Shown here one piece after another: positions 1-10,470 of a stretch of DNA of 10,470 bases. Within the stretch, counting starts at the first letter, position 1, and each line of letters opens with the position of its first letter. This DNA is from Paraprevotella sp. (GTDB taxonomy: Bacteria > Bacteroidota > Bacteroidia > Bacteroidales > Bacteroidaceae): assembly GCA_017630975.1 (NCBI GenBank), contig JAGBUF010000338.1:1-10470 (forward strand), in the 5' to 3' direction. The notes below the pieces were generated by a model, which worked only from the letters and a program-made list of their open reading frames with translations, made no database searches and had not been told where the DNA came from. A program made the position numbers and the translations under genes.

Positions 1-367
1 CCTCAATATGAATGAATTGCAAATTCTTTGCTTTCATTGATGGTTGATTGACCAAATCGGTCATCACCCTGCTGTTTTCTATCTCCGATACACCGATGAC
101 CGATGCACCGACCTTCGGCAACATATCTGTACCGATTTCTGAAAGGACCTTGGACATATTCTTCAGTTTGGCAAAATATTTCATGCCGGTCCATTTATTT
201 GTACCATTGGGCAAAAATTCATAATCATTCTTACCGTAATCATGAATCGTATCAAACAAATTTTCCAGATTGTAGAACCCCACTGCATACACCCCGATAT
301 TCTTTTTCTGTCCGAATGTCAACACGGGGAGCAGACAAAGCATTATCACATAAACTATCCTTTTCAT
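1..367 (-). CDS. Secreted endonuclease/exonuclease/phosphatase (EEP) family protein, partial (C-terminal part beyond left edge)
   Basis: Translating the minus strand from the ATG at 367 gives 122 residues, still open at base 1, so only the N-terminal third or so of the usual family length is present. Residues 1-19 form a signal peptide (KR, then a hydrophobic core, ending TFG before Q20), with no lipobox cysteine. The EEP fold starts at residues 28-38 with AVGFYNLENLF, whose Asn33 matches the first metal-site Asn of the family. A second hallmark is VIGVSEIEN at residues 90-98, where Glu95 aligns with the metal-binding Glu of the LQE motif in ExoIII/DNase I-like enzymes. Family members are Mg-dependent phosphodiesterases acting on DNA, RNA, inositol phosphates or sphingomyelin, so the substrate is not fixed by the visible part. 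The gene is divergent from the TonB receptor cluster, which contains another secreted nuclease; that context favours a nucleic-acid substrate, but this is inference. Base composition and start context look native. Confidence 0.88.
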   Translation of the reverse strand, partial: MKRIVYVIMLCLLPVLTFGQKKNIGVYAVGFYNLENLFDTIHDYGKNDYEFLPNGTNKWTGMKYFAKLKNMSKVLSEIGTDMLPKVGASVIGVSEIENSRVMTDLVNQPSMKAKNLQFIHIE

Positions 368-509
368 GACGTTATTCTTTAATTGTTATTACAAATATCC
401 GTTTTTTCATTCACCATACCAAAAAAAGTCCTAAAAAATTACCGTTTCATACTGATTATTTGAAATTTTTCACGTAAGTTTACGGCAAGAAATCATAAAA
501 TAAAAGGAC
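368..509. promoter_or_regulatory. Divergent intergenic region between EEP gene and TonB receptor operon
   Basis: This 142-base AT-rich spacer must hold promoters for both directions. For the plus strand the best -7 candidate is TAAGTTTA at 475-482, one mismatch from TAnnTTTG. The nearest upstream TTTG (459-462) is only 12 bases away, shorter than the usual 19-21, so this promoter is weakly supported or needs an activator. AAAGG at 503-507 is a reasonable ribosome-binding site for the ATG at 510. No clear operator palindrome or riboswitch-like structure was seen. Confidence 0.35.
392..423 (-). promoter_or_regulatory. Probable Bacteroides-type promoter of the EEP gene
   Basis: On the minus strand, TTTG at 423-420 is followed after 20 bases by GATATTTG at 399-392. 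This matches the Bacteroides sigma-ABfr consensus (TTTG around -33, TAnnTTTG around -7) at all but one position. Transcription would start near 385-388, giving a leader of about 20 bases before the ATG at 367. The site is seen in the sequence; its activity is inferred. Confidence 0.5.
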
Positions 510-3065
510 ATGAGAAAAAGAACGTCTTTGATTCTAACGTTTTTGCTGGCTGCCGGACTTCTCCATGCTCAGGAGATTGACACGATGGCTGTTTACCAGC
601 AAAGGACACAGAATGAGAATGCAGACTTCTCATTTACAGAATCACAGCTGAATGAAGATGACGATGCCGGACAGACTGTATCTGCAGTAACAGGTATCAG
701 CAACGACCTTTACTTATCGGAAGTGGGCTACTTGTTCAGTCCGATGCGTTTTCGATCACGCGCTTACCAAAACACCAACAATGGCATGTTCATCAACGGC
801 GTAAAATTCAATGATACCGAACGGGGAACTTTCAGTTACTCTTCTATCGGTGGACTGAACGATGTGACACGCAACCGAGAGGGTTCGCCTTTCTATTACA
901 TGAACCAATTCGGTTACACCGCCATCGGTGGATCGGACAACATCAACGTCAGAGCCGGGCAATATGCTGCCGGTCACAAGCTGACACTCTCCGGCGCAAA
1001 TAGAAATTACAGGACACGTGGCATGTATACCTATTCATCAGGATTGATGAGCAACGGGTGGGCATTTACCGGATCAGTAGGTTACCGTTGGGCCAACGAA
1101 GGAAATATCGAAGGTACATTCTATAACTCATTCAGTTATCTTTTCGGATTTGAAGAACGATTCAACGACCGTCACAGTCTGAGTTTCACAACATGGGGCG
1201 CTCCGACAGAAAGAGCGCAACAAGGTAGTTCTACCGAAGAGGCTTACTGGTTGGCAAACAGCCATTACTACAATCCGAACTGGGGTTATCAAAATGGAGA
1301 GAAACGTAATGCCAGAGTGGTGGAATCGTTTGAACCAACAGCCATTGTCACTTGGGATTTTGACATTGACGAACGCACCTCACTCAGCACCTCGGTTGCC
1401 GGTAAATATAATATGTATGCCAGTAGCGCACTGGGTTGGAGCGGCAATGCTGCCGACCCACGCCCGGACTATTACAAGAAGTTGCCAAGCGGACAGATTT
1501 CCACCAATATTTTTGATGGTGGACTGAGTGACGAGGATATTGAAACATGGCAAAATGCATACGAATATTGGACTGCTTCAAAAGCCAACCGACAAATCAA
1601 TTGGGACGCCATGTACTATGCCAATGCGCAACAACGCGCTTTAGGTGGAGAGGCACTGTATTACGTTGAGAACAGACATAATGACCAATTGGCTCTTCAT
1701 CTGAGTTCTACATTAAAAAGGTCCATGAACGAACATGGTTCTATCGCTGCCGGAATCAATTTAAGTACAACAAAGGGCATGCACTATAAAACCATGAAGG
1801 ATTTGATGGGAGCATCCACATTTACAGATGTGGATAAGTTTTCTGTTCGTGACTACGGTGTAAACTCGTTCATGATTCAAAATGACCTTGATCATCCCAA
1901 CAGAAAAATTGGTGAAGGTGACAAATTTGGTTACGACTACAATCTTTATGTCAATAAGGCACAGGCTTGGAGCAATTACCAAATCAACAAGAATTGGTTG
2001 ACCATGTTCTTTGCCGGCAGATTAGGGGGTACTACCATTGAGCGTGAAGGTTTGATGCGCAACGGACGTGCTGCACACAATTCCAAAGGAAGTAGCGGTG
2101 TGGCTAAGTTCTTAGAGGCTGGTTTCAAAACCGGTGCTACTTTCCGCGTGGGAGGAAAGCATGTATTCAATGTCGGCTTGGGTGCTGAAGAAAATGCTCC
2201 GTTGGCATACAATGCATTTGTGGCATCACGTTTGAAAAATGATTTCGTCAATGGGTTGCGCAACGAAGAGGTGATCAACACCGAAGCCAGCTACGCATAC
2301 AATGGTTCACGTTTCACTGCAAAGGTCACAGGATACTATACCCGTATGGCTAATGTGACAGAACTGGATCAGTTCTACAATGACCAGGAAGCACGCTACA
2401 CGTACTTAGCCATGACCGGAGTTGAGAAACAATATATGGGTGTGGAACTTGCTGCCCAAATCAAGATTCTCTCTAACTTGAAATTAAACCTTATCGGAAC
2501 TTACAGCGATGCTGAGTACACCAATAATCCCAATGCACAACTCACTTTCGAAAACGAATCTGAGACAACCACCGACAAGGTATATGCGAAAGGCATGAAA
2601 GAAAGTGGCACTCCCCTATCTGCCTATAGCATCGGTTTGGACTACAGCGTGAATGGATGGTTCCTGGAAGTCAAAGGAAATTACTATCACCGCGGGTTCA
2701 TTGATTTCTCTTCTTATCGCAGACTGTCCAGTGTGCTGGCAGCAGACGAGACCAGCGGTACGGTGGGAGAAGACGGACAAACCATTACTGTCATGCTACC
2801 GGAACAAGAGGAGTTCGATGGCGGATTTATGCTTGACCTCTCTGTCGGCAAATATATCCGCATGAAGAAAGGAAGAAGCCTAAGCATCAACCTCACCCTT
2901 AACAACGTGTTGAACAACACAAACATGAAAACGGGAGGATATGAGCAAAATCGTGATGATAATTACGACGACGGAAGCGAGCGCGCTTACAAGTTCTCCA
3001 AACATTCTAAATATTACTATGCCCAGGGTATCAACGGATTCTTGAATATAGGTTATCGTTTCTAA
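510..3065 (+). CDS. TonB-dependent outer-membrane receptor (SusD-less type)
   Basis: This 851-residue protein is an outer-membrane beta-barrel importer energised by TonB-ExbBD. A signal peptide spans residues 1-20 (cut at HA before Q21). DTMAV at 24-28, right at the mature N-terminus, resembles a TonB box. The plug domain covers roughly 45-150, with the typical pattern FRSRAYQNTNNGMFINGVKF at 81-100. The rest is alternating aromatic strands and polar loops of a 22-strand barrel, ending in the terminal aromatic signal GYRF needed for BAM insertion. Unlike SusC proteins it has no N-terminal CarboxypepD_reg domain, is shorter than the usual 1000 or so residues, and no SusD gene follows. Instead it is followed 22 bases downstream by a DUF5689 lipoprotein and then a choice-of-anchor J lipoprotein, which are probably its extracellular partners. 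The substrate is unknown; the linked nucleases suggest nucleic-acid fragments or nucleotides (inference). The start is supported by AAAGG just upstream. Confidence 0.93.
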   Translation: MRKRTSLILTFLLAAGLLHAQEIDTMAVYQQRTQNENADFSFTESQLNEDDDAGQTVSAVTGISNDLYLSEVGYLFSPMRFRSRAYQNTNNGMFINGVKFNDTERGTFSYSSIGGLNDVTRNREGSPFYYMNQFGYTAIGGSDNINVRAGQYAAGHKLTLSGANRNYRTRGMYTYSSGLMSNGWAFTGSVGYRWANEGNIEGTFYNSFSYLFGFEERFNDRHSLSFTTWGAPTERAQQGSSTEEAYWLANSHYYNPNWGYQNGEKRNARVVESFEPTAIVTWDFDIDERTSLSTSVAGKYNMYASSALGWSGNAADPRPDYYKKLPSGQISTNIFDGGLSDEDIETWQNAYEYWTASKANRQINWDAMYYANAQQRALGGEALYYVENRHNDQLALHLSSTLKRSMNEHGSIAAGINLSTTKGMHYKTMKDLMGASTFTDVDKFSVRDYGVNSFMIQNDLDHPNRKIGEGDKFGYDYNLYVNKAQAWSNYQINKNWLTMFFAGRLGGTTIEREGLMRNGRAAHNSKGSSGVAKFLEAGFKTGATFRVGGKHVFNVGLGAEENAPLAYNAFVASRLKNDFVNGLRNEEVINTEASYAYNGSRFTAKVTGYYTRMANVTELDQFYNDQEARYTYLAMTGVEKQYMGVELAAQIKILSNLKLNLIGTYSDAEYTNNPNAQLTFENESETTTDKVYAKGMKESGTPLSAYSIGLDYSVNGWFLEVKGNYYHRGFIDFSSYRRLSSVLAADETSGTVGEDGQTITVMLPEQEEFDGGFMLDLSVGKYIRMKKGRSLSINLTLNNVLNNTNMKTGGYEQNRDDNYDDGSERAYKFSKHSKYYYAQGINGFLNIGYRF

Positions 3066-3087
3066 CCCTTAAATTGAAGAAAAGACA

Positions 3088-3912
3088 ATGAAAAAGTTGA
3101 GTATTATATTAGCGACATTCTTATCCTGCTTCTTCATCGTAAGTTGCATGGACGATAACGAATATCCCGCACATTATGTGCCGGGCAATCCCAATATCGG
3201 AGAAGCCAATATTTCTATCGCAGAATTAAAAGAGAAATTCATACAAGTAACATCGGCCAATAAAGTCGAAAAAATTGAAGAGGACTTGATTATATCGGGT
3301 GTGGTGGTAGCTGATGACGAATCGGGAAACATCTACAAATCCATCTATATCAACGACGGAACAGGAACTATACAAATTGCCATCAACACTTCGGGTATAT
3401 ATGCACTCTTCCCGGTGGGACAAACCATCGTTGTGGATTGCAAGGGACTACACATCGGAGGATATGGCACGATGCCTCAGTTGGGCGCACTGTTTGAAGG
3501 CGAAATAGGCAGAATGTCCGAAATCACATGGATGAAACATGTACGACCGGAAGGCGGACCTGTACGAGAACACCCCGTATTGAAAAATCCAATCAAAGCA
3601 GACGAGGCTTGGTTAGATGCTGCAGAAGAGACAGCAGCACCCTATTTCGTATGCTTTGAGGAGGCCACCATTAAAGAAGCCGACGGCGAAGCCATCTTCG
3701 CACCGGAAGAGGAGGCGGATAAAGGTTACGGTGTAAATCGCAAAATACAAATAGGAAAGAAAAGTATGACTTTCCGTATCAGCACCTATGCCAATTTTGC
3801 CACAAGCATTATGCCGGAAGGAAAACTGAAGGCGACCGGCATGCTTACTGTGTACAACGGTACATGGCAATTTACCATCAGGACCCTCAGAGATATTGAA
3901 ACCATTGAATAA
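3088..3912 (+). CDS. DUF5689 domain surface lipoprotein with OB-fold-like core
   Basis: This 274-residue protein begins with a type II signal peptide whose lipobox is IVSC, with Cys20 as the lipidated residue. The residues after it (MDDNE) resemble the acidic lipoprotein export signal that sends Bacteroidetes lipoproteins to the cell surface. The remainder from about residue 40 fits the DUF5689 family. Residues 68-100 (LIISGVVVADD, then IYKSIYINDGTGTIQIAI) have the strand-loop-strand pattern and IxDGTG turn seen in OB-fold domains of extracellular nucleases and other nucleic-acid-binding proteins. Residues 110-135 and 220-270 supply further beta strands. No catalytic residues are apparent, so a binding or receptor-accessory role is more likely than an enzyme. 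It lies 22 bases after the TonB receptor and 17 before the next lipoprotein, with A-rich start regions, so the three are one operon. The family name is recognised from the pattern; nucleic-acid binding is inference. Confidence 0.82.
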   Translation: MKKLSIILATFLSCFFIVSCMDDNEYPAHYVPGNPNIGEANISIAELKEKFIQVTSANKVEKIEEDLIISGVVVADDESGNIYKSIYINDGTGTIQIAINTSGIYALFPVGQTIVVDCKGLHIGGYGTMPQLGALFEGEIGRMSEITWMKHVRPEGGPVREHPVLKNPIKADEAWLDAAEETAAPYFVCFEEATIKEADGEAIFAPEEEADKGYGVNRKIQIGKKSMTFRISTYANFATSIMPEGKLKATGMLTVYNGTWQFTIRTLRDIETIE

Positions 3913-3929
3913 AATAAAAACAAAAAGAT

Positions 3930-5540
3930 ATGAAACGTTATTTATCAATTTTCGTTAGCGCATTATGTGCATTAACGGTTTTCAACGCTTGTAGCGATGT
4001 TCCTGCACCGTATAAGATTCCGGGGGAAGATCCAGGAGATGGAACATTGGGAGCCGGCATATACGTAGAAGAGTCATTTGCTACAGATTTTGGGACATTT
4101 AAGGATTATACAGAAAAAGGAAACCCATGGATCATAGATTTCAAAACAGCAAAGGCTACCGGTTATGACAATGCCAGCAAAACTACTACGGAATCCAAAG
4201 GCTGGTTGATTTCAGAGGCTTTTGACCTCAGTCAATCTACAGGAGCATACGTTGAGTTTGAATATATTTTACGATATGTACGTGCAGGACAGACTGAAAA
4301 CAAAGTGCTCATCAGTACTGAGTATTTCGGGGATGTCAATGCTGCCAAATGGATTGATATTACAGGAACTCTTACGGAAGGAAGTGATTGGGAAACCTTC
4401 TATAAATACACAAAAGATTTGCCTGCTGAAGTCATCGGCAAGAATCATGTCAACATTGCTTTATATTATGCTTGCACTACTACTTCTGCCACTTGGGAAG
4501 TGAAGAATATCTCTGTTAAAGAAGGGACTGTAAAAGAAGAAGAAGAAGATAAACCGGTAAGTGGTAATCTATTGGAAAATGGTGATGCAGAAACTTGGGA
4601 AAATTCACAACCTGCCCATTGGAAGTCTGCCAGCACAGCAAGTAGCGCCACCCTATCGCAATCTACTGACGCACATAGTGGCAGTTACTCCATTTGCGTA
4701 GCCGGCGCTACCACAAACAAGCGATTGGCATACGAGGAAATAACCTTAAAGGCTGGTACCTATACATTGACATTCTATGCCAAAGCAGCCACAGCCGATG
4801 GCGGTAGCATCCGTCCCGGTTACACCTCAGTCATAGACGGTGTGGCACAAAGCAACGGATACAAGTATGGTTCATACTCCGACAATCTTACCAACACAGA
4901 GTGGAGAGAAATCACTCATGAATTCACTTTAGAGTCAACAACAACCCTCTGCTTGGTATTTATGAATCCGAAACAAACCGGTAAAGATGTCCTTCTTGAT
5001 GACTTCTCACTGACCACCGCCAATGGAGGATTGGCAGACGGTAGCAATGATGATGAAAATGATGATGAGAATGACACTCCCACTGCAAACATAACCTATA
5101 CAAAGGTAACTACCATCAGTGCCGGTACATATATCATCGCAGCCAACGTCGACGGTACCTATAAGGTGGCCACTCCACTTGGAGCAACCGCCAACTACGG
5201 TTATCTGAAGAATCCGGTAGATGCCACTGCCACCGGTAATACCATCACCCTGTCATCTACAGCTAATGAATTTGTCATTGAAAGTACATCCGGTGGTTAT
5301 ACCATCAAAGATGGCAACAATAAATACTATTACATGACAGGCACATATAATAGTTTCAATGTTGGTACATCACTTCCTACCGAGGGAGGCGTATGGAATA
5401 TCACTTTCAACGCAGACGGAACAGCCAACCTTGTCAATACTACAATGAACAAAACGTTGCAGTATGATACAGAATTCGGTTCATACGGAGTTTATGATAC
5501 CATCAAAGCTACGTTGCCGGCACTTTATAAGAAAAATTAA
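3930..5540 (+). CDS. Multidomain surface lipoprotein: choice-of-anchor J, CBM-like jelly roll and C-terminal beta domain
   Basis: This 536-residue protein has a lipoprotein signal peptide with lipobox FNAC (Cys21), followed by SDVPAPYKIPG, a start common in Bacteroides choice-of-anchor J proteins. Domain 1 (about 45-197) is choice-of-anchor J-like: it opens with ESFATDFGTF, has GWLISEAFDL at 91-100 and closes with WEVKNISVKEG. An acidic linker EEEED (203-207) leads to domain 2 (211-362), a CBM4/9-like jelly roll. That domain has the pattern NLLENGDAETW, then GTYTLTFYAKA, then VLLDDFSL, the usual layout of carbohydrate-binding modules. A second acidic linker (373-382, Asn/Asp/Glu only) leads to domain 3 (386-536), an all-beta module with KYYYMTGTYNSFNVG that I cannot assign with certainty. 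No catalytic motif is visible. It probably binds substrate or a surface ligand for the TonB receptor and the downstream nuclease. A hairpin follows its stop codon. Confidence 0.83.
   Translation: MKRYLSIFVSALCALTVFNACSDVPAPYKIPGEDPGDGTLGAGIYVEESFATDFGTFKDYTEKGNPWIIDFKTAKATGYDNASKTTTESKGWLISEAFDLSQSTGAYVEFEYILRYVRAGQTENKVLISTEYFGDVNAAKWIDITGTLTEGSDWETFYKYTKDLPAEVIGKNHVNIALYYACTTTSATWEVKNISVKEGTVKEEEEDKPVSGNLLENGDAETWENSQPAHWKSASTASSATLSQSTDAHSGSYSICVAGATTNKRLAYEEITLKAGTYTLTFYAKAATADGGSIRPGYTSVIDGVAQSNGYKYGSYSDNLTNTEWREITHEFTLESTTTLCLVFMNPKQTGKDVLLDDFSLTTANGGLADGSNDDENDDENDTPTANITYTKVTTISAGTYIIAANVDGTYKVATPLGATANYGYLKNPVDATATGNTITLSSTANEFVIESTSGGYTIKDGNNKYYYMTGTYNSFNVGTSLPTEGGVWNITFNADGTANLVNTTMNKTLQYDTEFGSYGVYDTIKATLPALYKKN
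4536..4550 (+). repeat. (GAA)4-GAT triplet tract coding for the first acidic linker
   Basis: Four GAA codons and one GAT code for EEEED at residues 203-207 of the multidomain lipoprotein, between its first two domains. Because the unit is three bases, slippage would change linker length without a frameshift. Confidence 0.7.
5046..5075 (+). repeat. Imperfect 12-base tandem repeat coding for the second acidic linker
   Basis: Two copies of AATGATGATGAR plus a partial third (AATGAC) code for NDDENDDEND, residues 373-382, between the CBM-like and C-terminal domains. The copies differ by one base (A/G). Copy-number change would be in frame. Confidence 0.75.
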
Positions 5541-5555
5541 ACTATGCTGATAACG

Positions 5556-5603
5556 ATTCAGGACAAACAGGATATTTCCTTCTTTGTCCTGAATTTCTTT
5601 TTA
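5556..5603 (+). terminator. Hairpin with T-rich tail between lipoprotein and endonuclease genes
   Basis: ATTCAGGACAAA at 5556-5567 pairs perfectly with TTTGTCCTGAAT at 5583-5594, a 12-base stem. The 15-base loop holds a small inner stem (AGGA with TCCT). A T-rich run TTTCTTTTTAT follows. It sits 15 bases after the stop of the multidomain lipoprotein and 24 before the next ATG. It looks like an intrinsic terminator. No convincing new promoter fits before the endonuclease, so partial read-through is likely (inference). Confidence 0.72.
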
Positions 5604-5618
5604 TAACACCAAGCACTT

Positions 5619-6584
5619 ATGAAACCACTTGTCTATTGTATTTTGTCATGTATCTGCTGTTGGGGATGGATATCATGTGACAAGAATGACGGTCCGATAT
5701 ACATCACCATTGAAAACACAAACGGAAATTCCGGTTCGCAGAACGGGGGCAGTAATGAGGAAAACAATATTTCCGCTTTTTCAAAGAATCTGGAAATGCC
5801 TCGTTTGGATGCCAACACCGGCGATGTGTATGCACACTATGTGACATACAAGGGACAAAAAGTGCTCAATTTCGTAGTCGACTGGCACAAGGAAAAGCTA
5901 CATTCCAGATGGATTGCCTTCCAGTTTACCAACACCACTGCCGCACAGAATTGGAACAGGGATAACTGGCACAACACAGAATGGGGCGGCGATCCTTTCC
6001 AACCGGACCCATTGATTCCGGCGGATGAAAGAACAGATCAATATTCCTACAAAGGCAGTAGATACAATAGGGGGCACTTATTGGCATCTGCCGACCGTCT
6101 GTTCTCAAAGGAGGGCAACGAACAAACTTTCTACATGTCGAACATGAGTCCGCAACAAGGTGGATTCAATAGCGACGATTGGTCTGACTTGGAAAAATTA
6201 GTAAGAAATTGGGGCAGAAACAATAGTTTTCGCGACACCCTTTTCGTTGTGAAAGGGGGAACCATTCGTGACAACCAAATATTGAAGTATATCAACAATG
6301 CCAGCTACGATGCTGTTGAGGGACAAAAGATTGCTGTACCTAAATATTATTTTATGGCATTGCTTTGCAAGAAATACACCGGCAGACAAAACACCTACAA
6401 AGCCATCGGCTTTTGGGTGGAACATAAATCCTATGGCGGAAAACCTATATTGTCTACATGGGTTGTCAGCATCGACCAATTGGAAGAACATACAGGAATT
6501 GATTTTTTCTGCAACCTGAACGACAACATAGAAAATGCTGTTGAAAGTAATTATAACATCGGAGAATGGCCCGGACTTAAATAA
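5619..6584 (+). CDS. Surface lipoprotein DNA/RNA non-specific endonuclease (NUC family)
   Basis: This 321-residue protein is a Mg-dependent nuclease of the Serratia nuclease/NucA fold, which cuts DNA and RNA with little sequence preference. The signal peptide (1-19) ends in lipobox WISC with Cys20 lipidated, then DKND and a low-complexity Asn/Gly/Ser linker (33-50) that spaces the enzyme from the membrane. The catalytic signature is NRGHLLASADR at 150-160. His153 is the general base, matching His89 of Serratia nuclease, with Arg151 beside it; the usual DRGH is NRGH here. SNMSPQQGGFNSDDWSDLE (174-192) supplies the metal-binding Asn184 and Glu192, at the same eight-residue spacing as Asn119 and Glu127 of the Serratia enzyme. 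WHNTEWGG at 117-124 and the C-terminal TGIDFFCNL are also typical. All key residues are present, so activity is expected. It follows the two lipoprotein genes after a hairpin; the ATG has no clear Shine-Dalgarno, as is usual in this group. Confidence 0.93.
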   Translation: MKPLVYCILSCICCWGWISCDKNDGPIYITIENTNGNSGSQNGGSNEENNISAFSKNLEMPRLDANTGDVYAHYVTYKGQKVLNFVVDWHKEKLHSRWIAFQFTNTTAAQNWNRDNWHNTEWGGDPFQPDPLIPADERTDQYSYKGSRYNRGHLLASADRLFSKEGNEQTFYMSNMSPQQGGFNSDDWSDLEKLVRNWGRNNSFRDTLFVVKGGTIRDNQILKYINNASYDAVEGQKIAVPKYYFMALLCKKYTGRQNTYKAIGFWVEHKSYGGKPILSTWVVSIDQLEEHTGIDFFCNLNDNIENAVESNYNIGEWPGLK

Positions 6585-6710: not shown

Positions 6711-6962
6711 ATGAAGAAAGATATTCATCCAGAAAATTACCGTCCTGTTGTGTTCAAAGACATGAGTAACGGTGACATGTTCCTTTCACGTTCTACTTGC
6801 AAGACTAACGATACAGTAGAATTCGAAGGCGAAACTTACCCAGTAATAAAACTTGAAATCTCCAGCAGCTCACACCCATTCTATACCGGTAAGAGCAAAT
6901 TGGTGGATACAGCAGGTCGCGTAGACAAGTTCATGAGCCGCTACGCAAAGACTCGCAAGTAA
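6711..6962 (+). CDS. rpmE2: 50S ribosomal protein L31, type B
   Basis: This 83-residue protein has the N-terminal [17 protein letters not shown] and the central [20 protein letters not shown] that identify bacterial ribosomal protein L31 of type B. L31 binds the large subunit at the central protuberance and bridges the two subunits. The type A form carries a CxxC zinc site; here only one cysteine (Cys30) is present, so this is the zinc-independent form. The gene is monocistronic, with a consensus promoter upstream and a strong hairpin 22 bases after the stop. Start choice is secure: the ATG begins the conserved N-terminus. Confidence 0.97.
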
Positions 6963-9417: not shown

Positions 9418-10470
9418 TTATTTATCTTTTACAATGTAATACGCAGGTTTCAAACCATTCAACGCAGCAGCACGTTTTGAAGTCTTCACTTTTATTCCAT
9501 TCAATGTATATACATCAACCTCACTGTCATTATTTCTTGAAGCGTCTTGAACGGAGGATAAGTCTTGATAATCATTCATCTGTATATCATCGATATTCAA
9601 CCTTTTTCCGGATGTTCCTGTACATTTGAATTTCAAGCGTATCGCACCCTTAACATGCAAATAATAGGCATATCGTTTCCACTCTCCTTTTTTGAATGAC
9701 ATTTCCTTGACTACATCCGTCCATGTCTTTCCGGCATCCAACGAATAACTTACAGTCAATTTCACCCCGGTATCCGTGTTGTACATTCCGGCATAAAACG
9801 ACAATGAATCGCAACCGTCTGTTTTATCTTCCAACATTTCGAGTTCGGTGATAACACCTGACTTTGATTGCATCCTGACAGACTTGGAATCATTGTATCT
9901 GTCATTCCCTGACCCCAGCAAGCTCTGTGCCATACGCCAGCGGCACGCAGAGCATTCCACCTCGGCTTCCGCGTATGCGCCCTTTGAACCGGACTCAAAA
10001 TTTTCAAAGAACGATTTCTCATTGTTCACTTCGCCGGTCAAGCTCACCACAATATCTTCAACCTTAGACGTTGACATGATCATTTCTGCTTCATAAAAGC
10101 CTTCTTCCGAAACGCTACCCATGCGTACATATAGAGTTTGTTTGGAACCGCTTACTGTGGTCTGCTCTCCCCACTGCACTCCATCTGCACTTACCTCGAA
10201 TGGTGCCGATGTATAAACAGTCGTAACATATTGAGGTACTTCAAGGGCTGTAATCGCCACAACTTGTTCCTTTGACGGCACTTGAGTTGAAGAGGTGAAA
10301 TGTATCTCAGACACATTGGTAGTGAACACAGGCTTTACAGTAGGCATCTTTACCTGCACCTCATTGGAATACATGATGGGACGACCGGATGCATCATACC
10401 CTGTCACCTGGTAATAATACGTGGTAGAGGCCTTCAGGTTAGAAACCACGAGAGAGGACGCCGTTGTTGA
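9418..10470 (-). CDS. Secreted modular protein, C-terminal part (FnIII, Ig-like, choice-of-anchor-like domain, T9SS-like tail); N-terminus beyond right edge
   Basis: The reading frame is open to base 10470, with seven codons visible upstream of an internal GTG at 10449, so the true start and any catalytic domain lie outside. About 350 residues are visible. From 10470 to about 10345 is the end of a fibronectin III domain ([18 protein letters not shown] is its typical F-strand). About 10332-10027 is an Ig-like beta domain. About 10014-9570 is a choice-of-anchor/jelly-roll-like domain that opens [13 protein letters not shown], has ECSACRW with two cysteines, and ends [12 protein letters not shown]. 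The last 44 residues (from about 9552) contain [13 protein letters not shown] and [12 protein letters not shown], resembling a type IX secretion C-terminal domain. The gene abuts truA by 4 bases. Such C-terminal modules occur on secreted hydrolases including nucleases, but the activity here cannot be seen. Confidence 0.82.

Follow-up and report, generated by a model that had tools for sequence, protein, structure and literature searches.

In a Paraprevotella-like genome we have identified a five-gene locus whose products, on balance, probably form an outer-membrane complex that imports nucleic acid, with double-stranded DNA as the likeliest substrate. The conserved core of the locus consists of a gene for a TonB-dependent transporter (TBDT) and an adjoining gene for a lipoprotein with a DUF5689 domain, usually in the company of a gene for an EEP nuclease, and this linkage is old. 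The orthology, adjacency and co-occurrence of the genes and the fold classes of their products are observed and are set out below. The experiments that we found on relatives of these genes concern natural transformation (PMC8459023). No paper on the locus in Bacteroidales was among the matches listed in the open-licence literature.

Genes of the Locus

The stretch of DNA under analysis, here called the window, is 10,470 nucleotides long. It is the whole of contig C68 of a fragmentary MAG (G000; 1.82 Mb in 383 contigs, 70.7% complete), and hence nothing beyond it can be read in that genome. Open reading frames and a family scan placed the five genes where the original prediction had put them. 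At the left end (positions 2 to 367, minus strand) lie the first 122 residues of the EEP nuclease (Exo_endo_phos_3; PF19580, E = 4.5e-28), whose gene is divergent from that of the receptor. On the plus strand follow the TBDT (510 to 3065), which was recognized by fold search and assigned to the RS04915 family by tree and profile comparison; a DUF5689 surface lipoprotein of 274 aa (3088 to 3912; PF18942, E = 1.8e-57) from the family of Riemerella RS04920, or M949_1556; a modular lipoprotein (3930 to 5540) with the motif C-S-D-V-P-A-P-Y behind the lipid cysteine; and a lipoprotein of the NUC family of DNA/RNA non-specific endonucleases (5619 to 6584; PF01223, E = 8.2e-44). Because the gaps between these four genes measure 22, 17 and 78 bases, the four likely share a single transcript.

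Ribosomal protein L31 is encoded next (6711 to 6962, plus strand), and the genes for DUF3256, EamA and TruA follow on the opposite (minus) strand. This block of four genes stays together even in loci in which it flanks the receptor on the opposite side (L059, L067, L088, L098, L103 and L105). The contig end cuts a further gene (9418 to 10470, minus strand). What is left of it encodes the C-terminal portion of a nuclease of the Endonuclease_1 family, the third nuclease in this region; the Paraprevotella relative of the protein (L027, 20411 to 22549, minus strand) matches PF04231 with an E value of 1e-42.

The Receptor Belongs with Those of Flavobacteriaceae

The receptor gave no Pfam or NCBIfam match, and no CarboxypepD_reg domain was detected in it. 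We therefore turn to its predicted structure. A model built from 44 sequences (pLDDT 78.5, the prediction being poor for most of residues 1 to 140) was compared with the PDB; its best 50 matches were all TonB-dependent transporters (best E = 3.7e-26), and the receptor as modeled has a β-barrel of the TBDT fold. The Pfam Plug domain is matched by six of 23 orthologues and not by the window receptor, in which the region is poorly predicted in the model. N-terminal of the plug region lies a conserved stretch (D-F-T-F-T-E-S-Q-L in the A1 consensus) that might, at a guess, be the TonB box.

Among the matches listed, the closest named relatives of the receptor come from Paraprevotella (71-86% identity). 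Profile comparison reaches much further: the family of the window receptor aligned with the receptor of Chryseobacterium camelliae over 784 columns with an E value of 2.1e-70. In a tree of 23 orthologues and ten paralogues the two groups were split at 100/100, with the orthologues from Bacteroidales and from Flavobacteriia on one side of that branch and clustered largely by lineage. Because profile comparison, neighborhood and tree agree, we place the Bacteroidales receptor with those of Flavobacteriaceae; by these comparisons the window receptor is orthologous to the Riemerella RS04915 family. A phage origin of the locus was rejected, as the receptor tree follows lineages and, of three window proteins, only NUC matches a PHROG family.

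The paralogous receptors are 25-30% identical to that of the window. A lipoprotein similar to the modular one was found in seven of the ten paralogue loci and a NUC gene in four. Neither the DUF5689 nor the EEP protein of the window had a match beside any of the ten. At L111 (from G077, a genome in which we found only a paralogous receptor), paralogue, lipoprotein and NUC adjoin EamA and DUF3256; it is possible that one system has replaced the other at a single chromosomal site.

Receptor, DUF5689 and EEP Genes Are Linked across the Phylum

Searching with tblastn the best 80 of 184 Bacteroidales loci by receptor similarity, a set that is close to the window by virtue of this selection, we found DUF5689 in 79 loci, EEP in 73, the modular lipoprotein in 72 and NUC in 54. 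Twelve further loci from more distant Bacteroidales families, some of them cut by contig ends, yielded DUF5689 in 11, EEP in six and NUC in three. In two of these (L241 and L246) NUC, EEP, receptor and DUF5689 all run in the same direction, and L240, which has the receptor and neither DUF5689 nor EEP, is the clear exception among the 12 loci, all of which were read closely. In the set of 80 the EEP gene lay upstream on the other strand in 62 loci, downstream on the plus strand in eight and upstream on the plus strand in three. It was missing from seven; in four of these (L050, L051, L070 and L072) the contig reaches less than 2.4 kb beyond the receptor on the upstream side. Bacteroides xylanisolvens is among the gut commensals in which the locus occurs (L041). 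Thus the conserved linkage of nuclease genes with the receptor, on which the original prediction depended, is seen in related genomes and survives changes of order and strand. Chance synteny was rejected, EEP being linked in three different arrangements.

Counted as sampled, with kinship ignored and with score thresholds chosen after the gap was visible, a strict receptor orthologue (profile A3, pieces above 500 bits; the class below starts at 310 bits) occurs in 46 of the 296 Bacteroidota genomes. A strong DUF5689 match (E < 1e-30) occurs in exactly the same 46. The two genes are less than 1.5 kb apart in 45 of the 46, the exception being G167, in which they lie on different contigs. In the order sample 70 of 149 genomes reach 430 bits, with a small gap to the next class (392 bits), and in the family sample 74 of 151 reach 435 bits; absences in these samples are soft because only three or six candidates were scored per genome. 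Among Weeksellaceae, a match of some kind is present in 78 of 80 genomes: 75 have one at E = 1.3e-142 or better, and in the other three it is weak (E = 5e-69 or above).

Twenty flanked loci from across the phylum were chosen by their match to the NCBIfam model M949_1556 (DUF5689 plus choice-of-anchor J). The receptor orthologue stood beside DUF5689 in 19 of them, EEP was present in 17, and NUC was present in one. In 58 short loci drawn from the phylum and order samples, many of them from the same genomes, DUF5689 was found without exception and EEP within the 1.5-kb flanks in 37.

We also noted a superoxide-dismutase-like gene, recognized by reading of the sequence, near EEP in 17 Bacteroidaceae loci (cluster 4: L054, L056-L058, L060-L065, L068, L075, L076, L080, L087, L089 and L104). 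Such a gene lies close to EEP in Weeksellaceae as well (L147-L149, L153 and L158), and its occurrence in both families is perhaps a trace of old synteny.

The Two Surface Lipoproteins

Lipoboxes on the plus-strand lipoproteins and an acidic stretch after the DUF5689 cysteine had been predicted, and both are present in the sequence; at least two acidic residues occur at positions +2 to +6 in 63 of 75 DUF5689 relatives. By its domain and by its similarity to a relative at L172 (BLASTP, E = 3e-16, 25% identity), the protein adjoining the receptor belongs to the RS04920/M949_1556 family. It scores 101 bits against the full-length model NF052645 (M949_1556), below the cut-off of 475, because its second half is elsewhere or missing.

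The model of the DUF5689 protein (pLDDT 91.4) has tandem OB folds. Its nearest matches by Foldseek are DNA-binding domains of HIN-200 proteins and RPA, and it is also near the OB domains of tRNA synthetases; HIN-200 proteins were absent from the best 50 of a second aligner, which only re-ranks. A hint of an OB fold at the level of sequence (PF01336, E = 0.0014) falls below the cut-off. The protein is acidic (pI 4.86; median 4.82 among 75 relatives), and this property would count against a simple binder of the nucleic-acid backbone. In several Bacteroidales families two DUF5689 genes stand in tandem behind the receptor (L244, L245, L247 and L250), as if the candidate binding lipoprotein had been duplicated. 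We also note that PF18942 is matched above its cut-off in a control genome, that of Bacillus subtilis; the protein in question may be YhcR, which we take to be a secreted nuclease with OB folds.

The modular lipoprotein gave no Pfam match above the cut-off in the scan of the window, and the three modules once proposed for it are confirmed by no library. Its relatives carry DUF5017, DUF6359 or CBM_4_9, so that module content varies. A motif of the C-S-D-V-P-A-P-Y type stands behind the lipid cysteine in 59 of 75 relatives. Conservation of this start of the protein (window positions 3930 to 3992; C-x-D-V-P-A-P-Y type) greatly exceeds that of the modules that follow, a pattern that would suit an anchor or docking peptide to which different cargoes can be attached.

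An Accessory and a Conserved Nuclease

The protein encoded at 5619 to 6584 scores 150.3 bits against PF01223 (cut-off 23), which places it by sequence in the DNA/RNA non-specific endonuclease family. Comparison with what we take to be the active-site motifs of this family revealed the His and Asn motifs, with the first Asp of DRGH replaced by Asn, as it is in 17 of 61 relatives. No NUC match was found in 26 of the 80 Bacteroidales loci, in nine of the 12 more distant ones or in 19 of the 20 phylum loci. As 16 of the 26 NUC-less loci have a full 10 kb downstream, we regard NUC as accessory. The earlier view of an outer-membrane module that is conserved as a unit and has two nuclease families is supported, with NUC as an accessory of the core. 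In the many gut members that have it, the surface nuclease could serve for feeding, for trimming or for both.

The EEP protein scores 98.6 bits against PF19580 on the fragment that the contig end has left. A full-size relative at L027 has 348 aa (PF19580, E = 6.2e-95). The fragment contains the metal-Glu motif E-I-E-N and stops, at the contig end, short of the second half of the active site. Among relatives, which are basic (median pI 8.86), the active-site motifs are kept in 65 of 66. The protein has a signal peptide and no lipobox, and so "secreted" more likely means periplasmic in this case: EEP is probably a periplasmic and not a surface enzyme. The proposal that both nucleases cut at the surface accordingly has to be narrowed to NUC, since EEP, with its signal peptide and without a lipobox, looks periplasmic.

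Relationship to the Transformation Genes of Riemerella

In R. anatipestifer, RA0C_RS04915 encodes a carboxypeptidase-regulatory-like protein predicted to lie in the outer membrane, and it adjoins RA0C_RS04920, whose product has DUF5689, DUF5017 and choice-of-anchor J domains (PMC8459023). Markerless deletion of either gene brought transformation from 5.4e-5 in the wild type to below the detection limit of 4.2e-10, and deletion of the SusC-like gene RS09840 had no significant effect (PMC8459023). The same source reports a DUF5017 gene between the receptor/DUF5689 pair in F. columnare; in two of our loci (L150 and L152) a small gene likewise lies between the pair, at a place where both genomes match the second half of M949_1556. 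The source calls the homologues widely distributed in Bacteroidetes, yet also states that RS04915 homologues occur only in Flavobacteriaceae (PMC8459023).

We compared the published order with that in a Weeksellaceae genome contained in one contig of 2.16 Mb (G492). The order there is recA, a dinB-like gene, three sdh-like genes, comEC, two genes, EEP, receptor and DUF5689, with dinB and sdh assigned by reading of N-termini. RecA scores above its NCBIfam cut-off, and ComEC exceeds the one set for the ComEC N-terminal domain. If locus tags advance by five per gene, RecA falls at RS04870, ComEC at RS04895, the receptor at RS04915 and DUF5689 at RS04920, as published, and EEP falls at RS04910. 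With 599 bits the DUF5689 protein of this genome clears the M949_1556 cut-off of 475, and it contains the choice-of-anchor J domain. The match of the window genes to the R. anatipestifer locus is thus one of gene order and family. The distance between comEC and the receptor varies: it is four genes in G492, G505 and G515 and, by ORF reading, about 12 kb in G444, a genome of the same genus, and no comEC was seen in the stretch read of G475. Closeness of the two is therefore not general.

The genome of the window itself has ComEC (E = 7.4e-55), DprA (E = 3.2e-74) and HHH_3 (E = 2.8e-8). ComEC is present in 288 of 296 phylum genomes, including all 46 with the receptor, DprA in 24 of 25 and HhH in 25 of 25, and because these genes are near-universal their presence is weak evidence. 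DUF1343 (RS09020), which is essential for transformation in Riemerella, was found in none of eight genomes of the window's genus and in eight of 25 overall and does not track the receptor. Given its absence from the genus genomes tested, we stop short of assigning the window to the full Riemerella machine. Transformation is reduced by the loss of tonBA or tonBB, an effect for which the authors suspect iron and nutrient uptake (PMC8383284).

Discussion

The case for an inward movement of nucleic acid is built on homologues that are essential for transformation, on the linked nuclease genes and on the OB folds. Against it count the absence of DUF1343 from the eight genus genomes tested, the locus L240 with its receptor but neither DUF5689 nor EEP, the finding of EEP in only six of the 12 more distant loci and the acidity of the DUF5689 protein. 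In our best reading the complex would work like that of Riemerella, with a surface nuclease and binding modules added in many Bacteroidales. The two-OB-fold DUF5689 protein and the modular lipoprotein would hold DNA at the cell surface, where NUC, if present, would trim it to fragments or free ends. The TBDT would pass the DNA across the outer membrane using the energy of TonB, and EEP would process it in the periplasm. ComEC and DprA, both present in the genome of the window, would then carry the strand onward, or periplasmic breakdown would feed the cell. In this scheme we infer DNA as the ligand, the direction of transport, the use of TonB, the periplasmic place of EEP and every step in gut Bacteroidales.

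A broader proposal is more tentative. It is that Bacteroidota possess a TonB-driven DNA importer that is not based on a secretin and pilus, is conserved from Flavobacteriia to gut Bacteroidales (Bacteroides, Paraprevotella and Prevotellaceae) and leads from a surface lipoprotein with two OB folds through a TBDT to a periplasmic EEP. Gut Bacteroidales would then be transformed by way of this complex, and many of them would be naturally transformable under the right conditions. We hold this to be plausible, with the odds somewhat against it.

A different use of the same genes would be feeding, in which DNA or RNA is cleaved by surface nucleases and oligonucleotides enter through the receptor as a source of carbon, nitrogen or phosphate, with no role in gene transfer in gut Bacteroidales. 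Several observations are in keeping with this idea: in 54 of 80 loci the receptor is accompanied by a surface NUC lipoprotein, an Endonuclease_1 protein is encoded within a few genes of the locus, four of ten paralogous receptor loci have NUC nucleases, and DUF1343 is absent from the Paraprevotella genomes tested. However, receptor and DUF5689 stay where NUC is missing (26 of 80 loci and 19 of 20 phylum loci), and the Riemerella relatives are essential for transformation (PMC8459023), so that we consider feeding in this strict form rather unlikely. Feeding and transformation may, for that matter, share one importer.

Still less probable, in our judgment, is a transporter for some other ligand (a glycan, a peptide or a metal complex), for which the loss of competence in Riemerella would be indirect and the nucleases would clear surface DNA for biofilm or defense. 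The OB folds modeled in DUF5689 and the lasting linkage to EEP, with its motifs kept in 65 of 66 relatives, speak against it, as does the specificity of the Riemerella screen, the SusC-like RS09840 having proved dispensable when cleanly deleted (PMC8459023). Nonetheless, binding modules in relatives include CBM_4_9 and BACON, the lipoproteins are acidic, and the B. thetaiotaomicron DNase BT3563 acts in biofilm (PMC11078008). Moreover, a vaccine review describes an M949_1556 mutant with attenuated virulence, and the family may therefore have wider effects (PMC12566107).

The locus is a candidate DNA-import gate in common gut bacteria and, if import of nucleic acid is the correct reading, has a bearing on gene exchange in the gut and on the genetics of commensals. 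For the passage of DNA across the outer membrane it offers two or three testable genes in dominant gut bacteria, tied to the result in Riemerella. The conserved EEP gene is an addition, as it does not appear among the genes listed from the screen in the cited part of PMC8459023.

Finally, we compare the locus with known systems. It resembles a SusCD-type polysaccharide utilization locus in having a TBDT with surface lipoproteins and a surface enzyme, and it differs in having nucleases and no match to a glycan-cutting enzyme. No SusD-family match was found among the ten window proteins scanned, and identity with such a locus was rejected for want of SusD. The comparison as originally drawn, which starts from a receptor that has no SusD partner, is not supported as stated; this receptor falls in a clade apart from the ten paralogous receptors in the tree. 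The paralogue loci L106, L108, L110 and L111, of the same family, are like the window in combining a receptor with a modular lipoprotein and NUC, but their receptors form the separate clade at 100/100. Moreover, the receptor of L106, the one paralogue scanned for domains, has recognizable CarboxypepD_reg, plug and barrel domains, unlike that of the window.

Porphyromonas gingivalis, itself a member of the Bacteroidales, uses ComF, ComEA and ComEC in competence, most other components of uptake being described as unknown (PMC11532111); ComEC and HhH proteins are likewise present in the Bacteroidales tested here, and section 3.5 of that source names no outer-membrane part. The nearest counterpart is the RS04915/RS04920 pair of Riemerella, the one organism in which a function in transformation is established. 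The window receptor differs in having no detectable CarboxypepD_reg domain, and the window DUF5689 protein ends after its DUF5689 domain (274 aa versus 467), with a separate modular lipoprotein and NUC following. Nevertheless, the two loci have the same receptor and DUF5689 families in the same adjacency, and in G492 a divergent EEP gene stands beside them.
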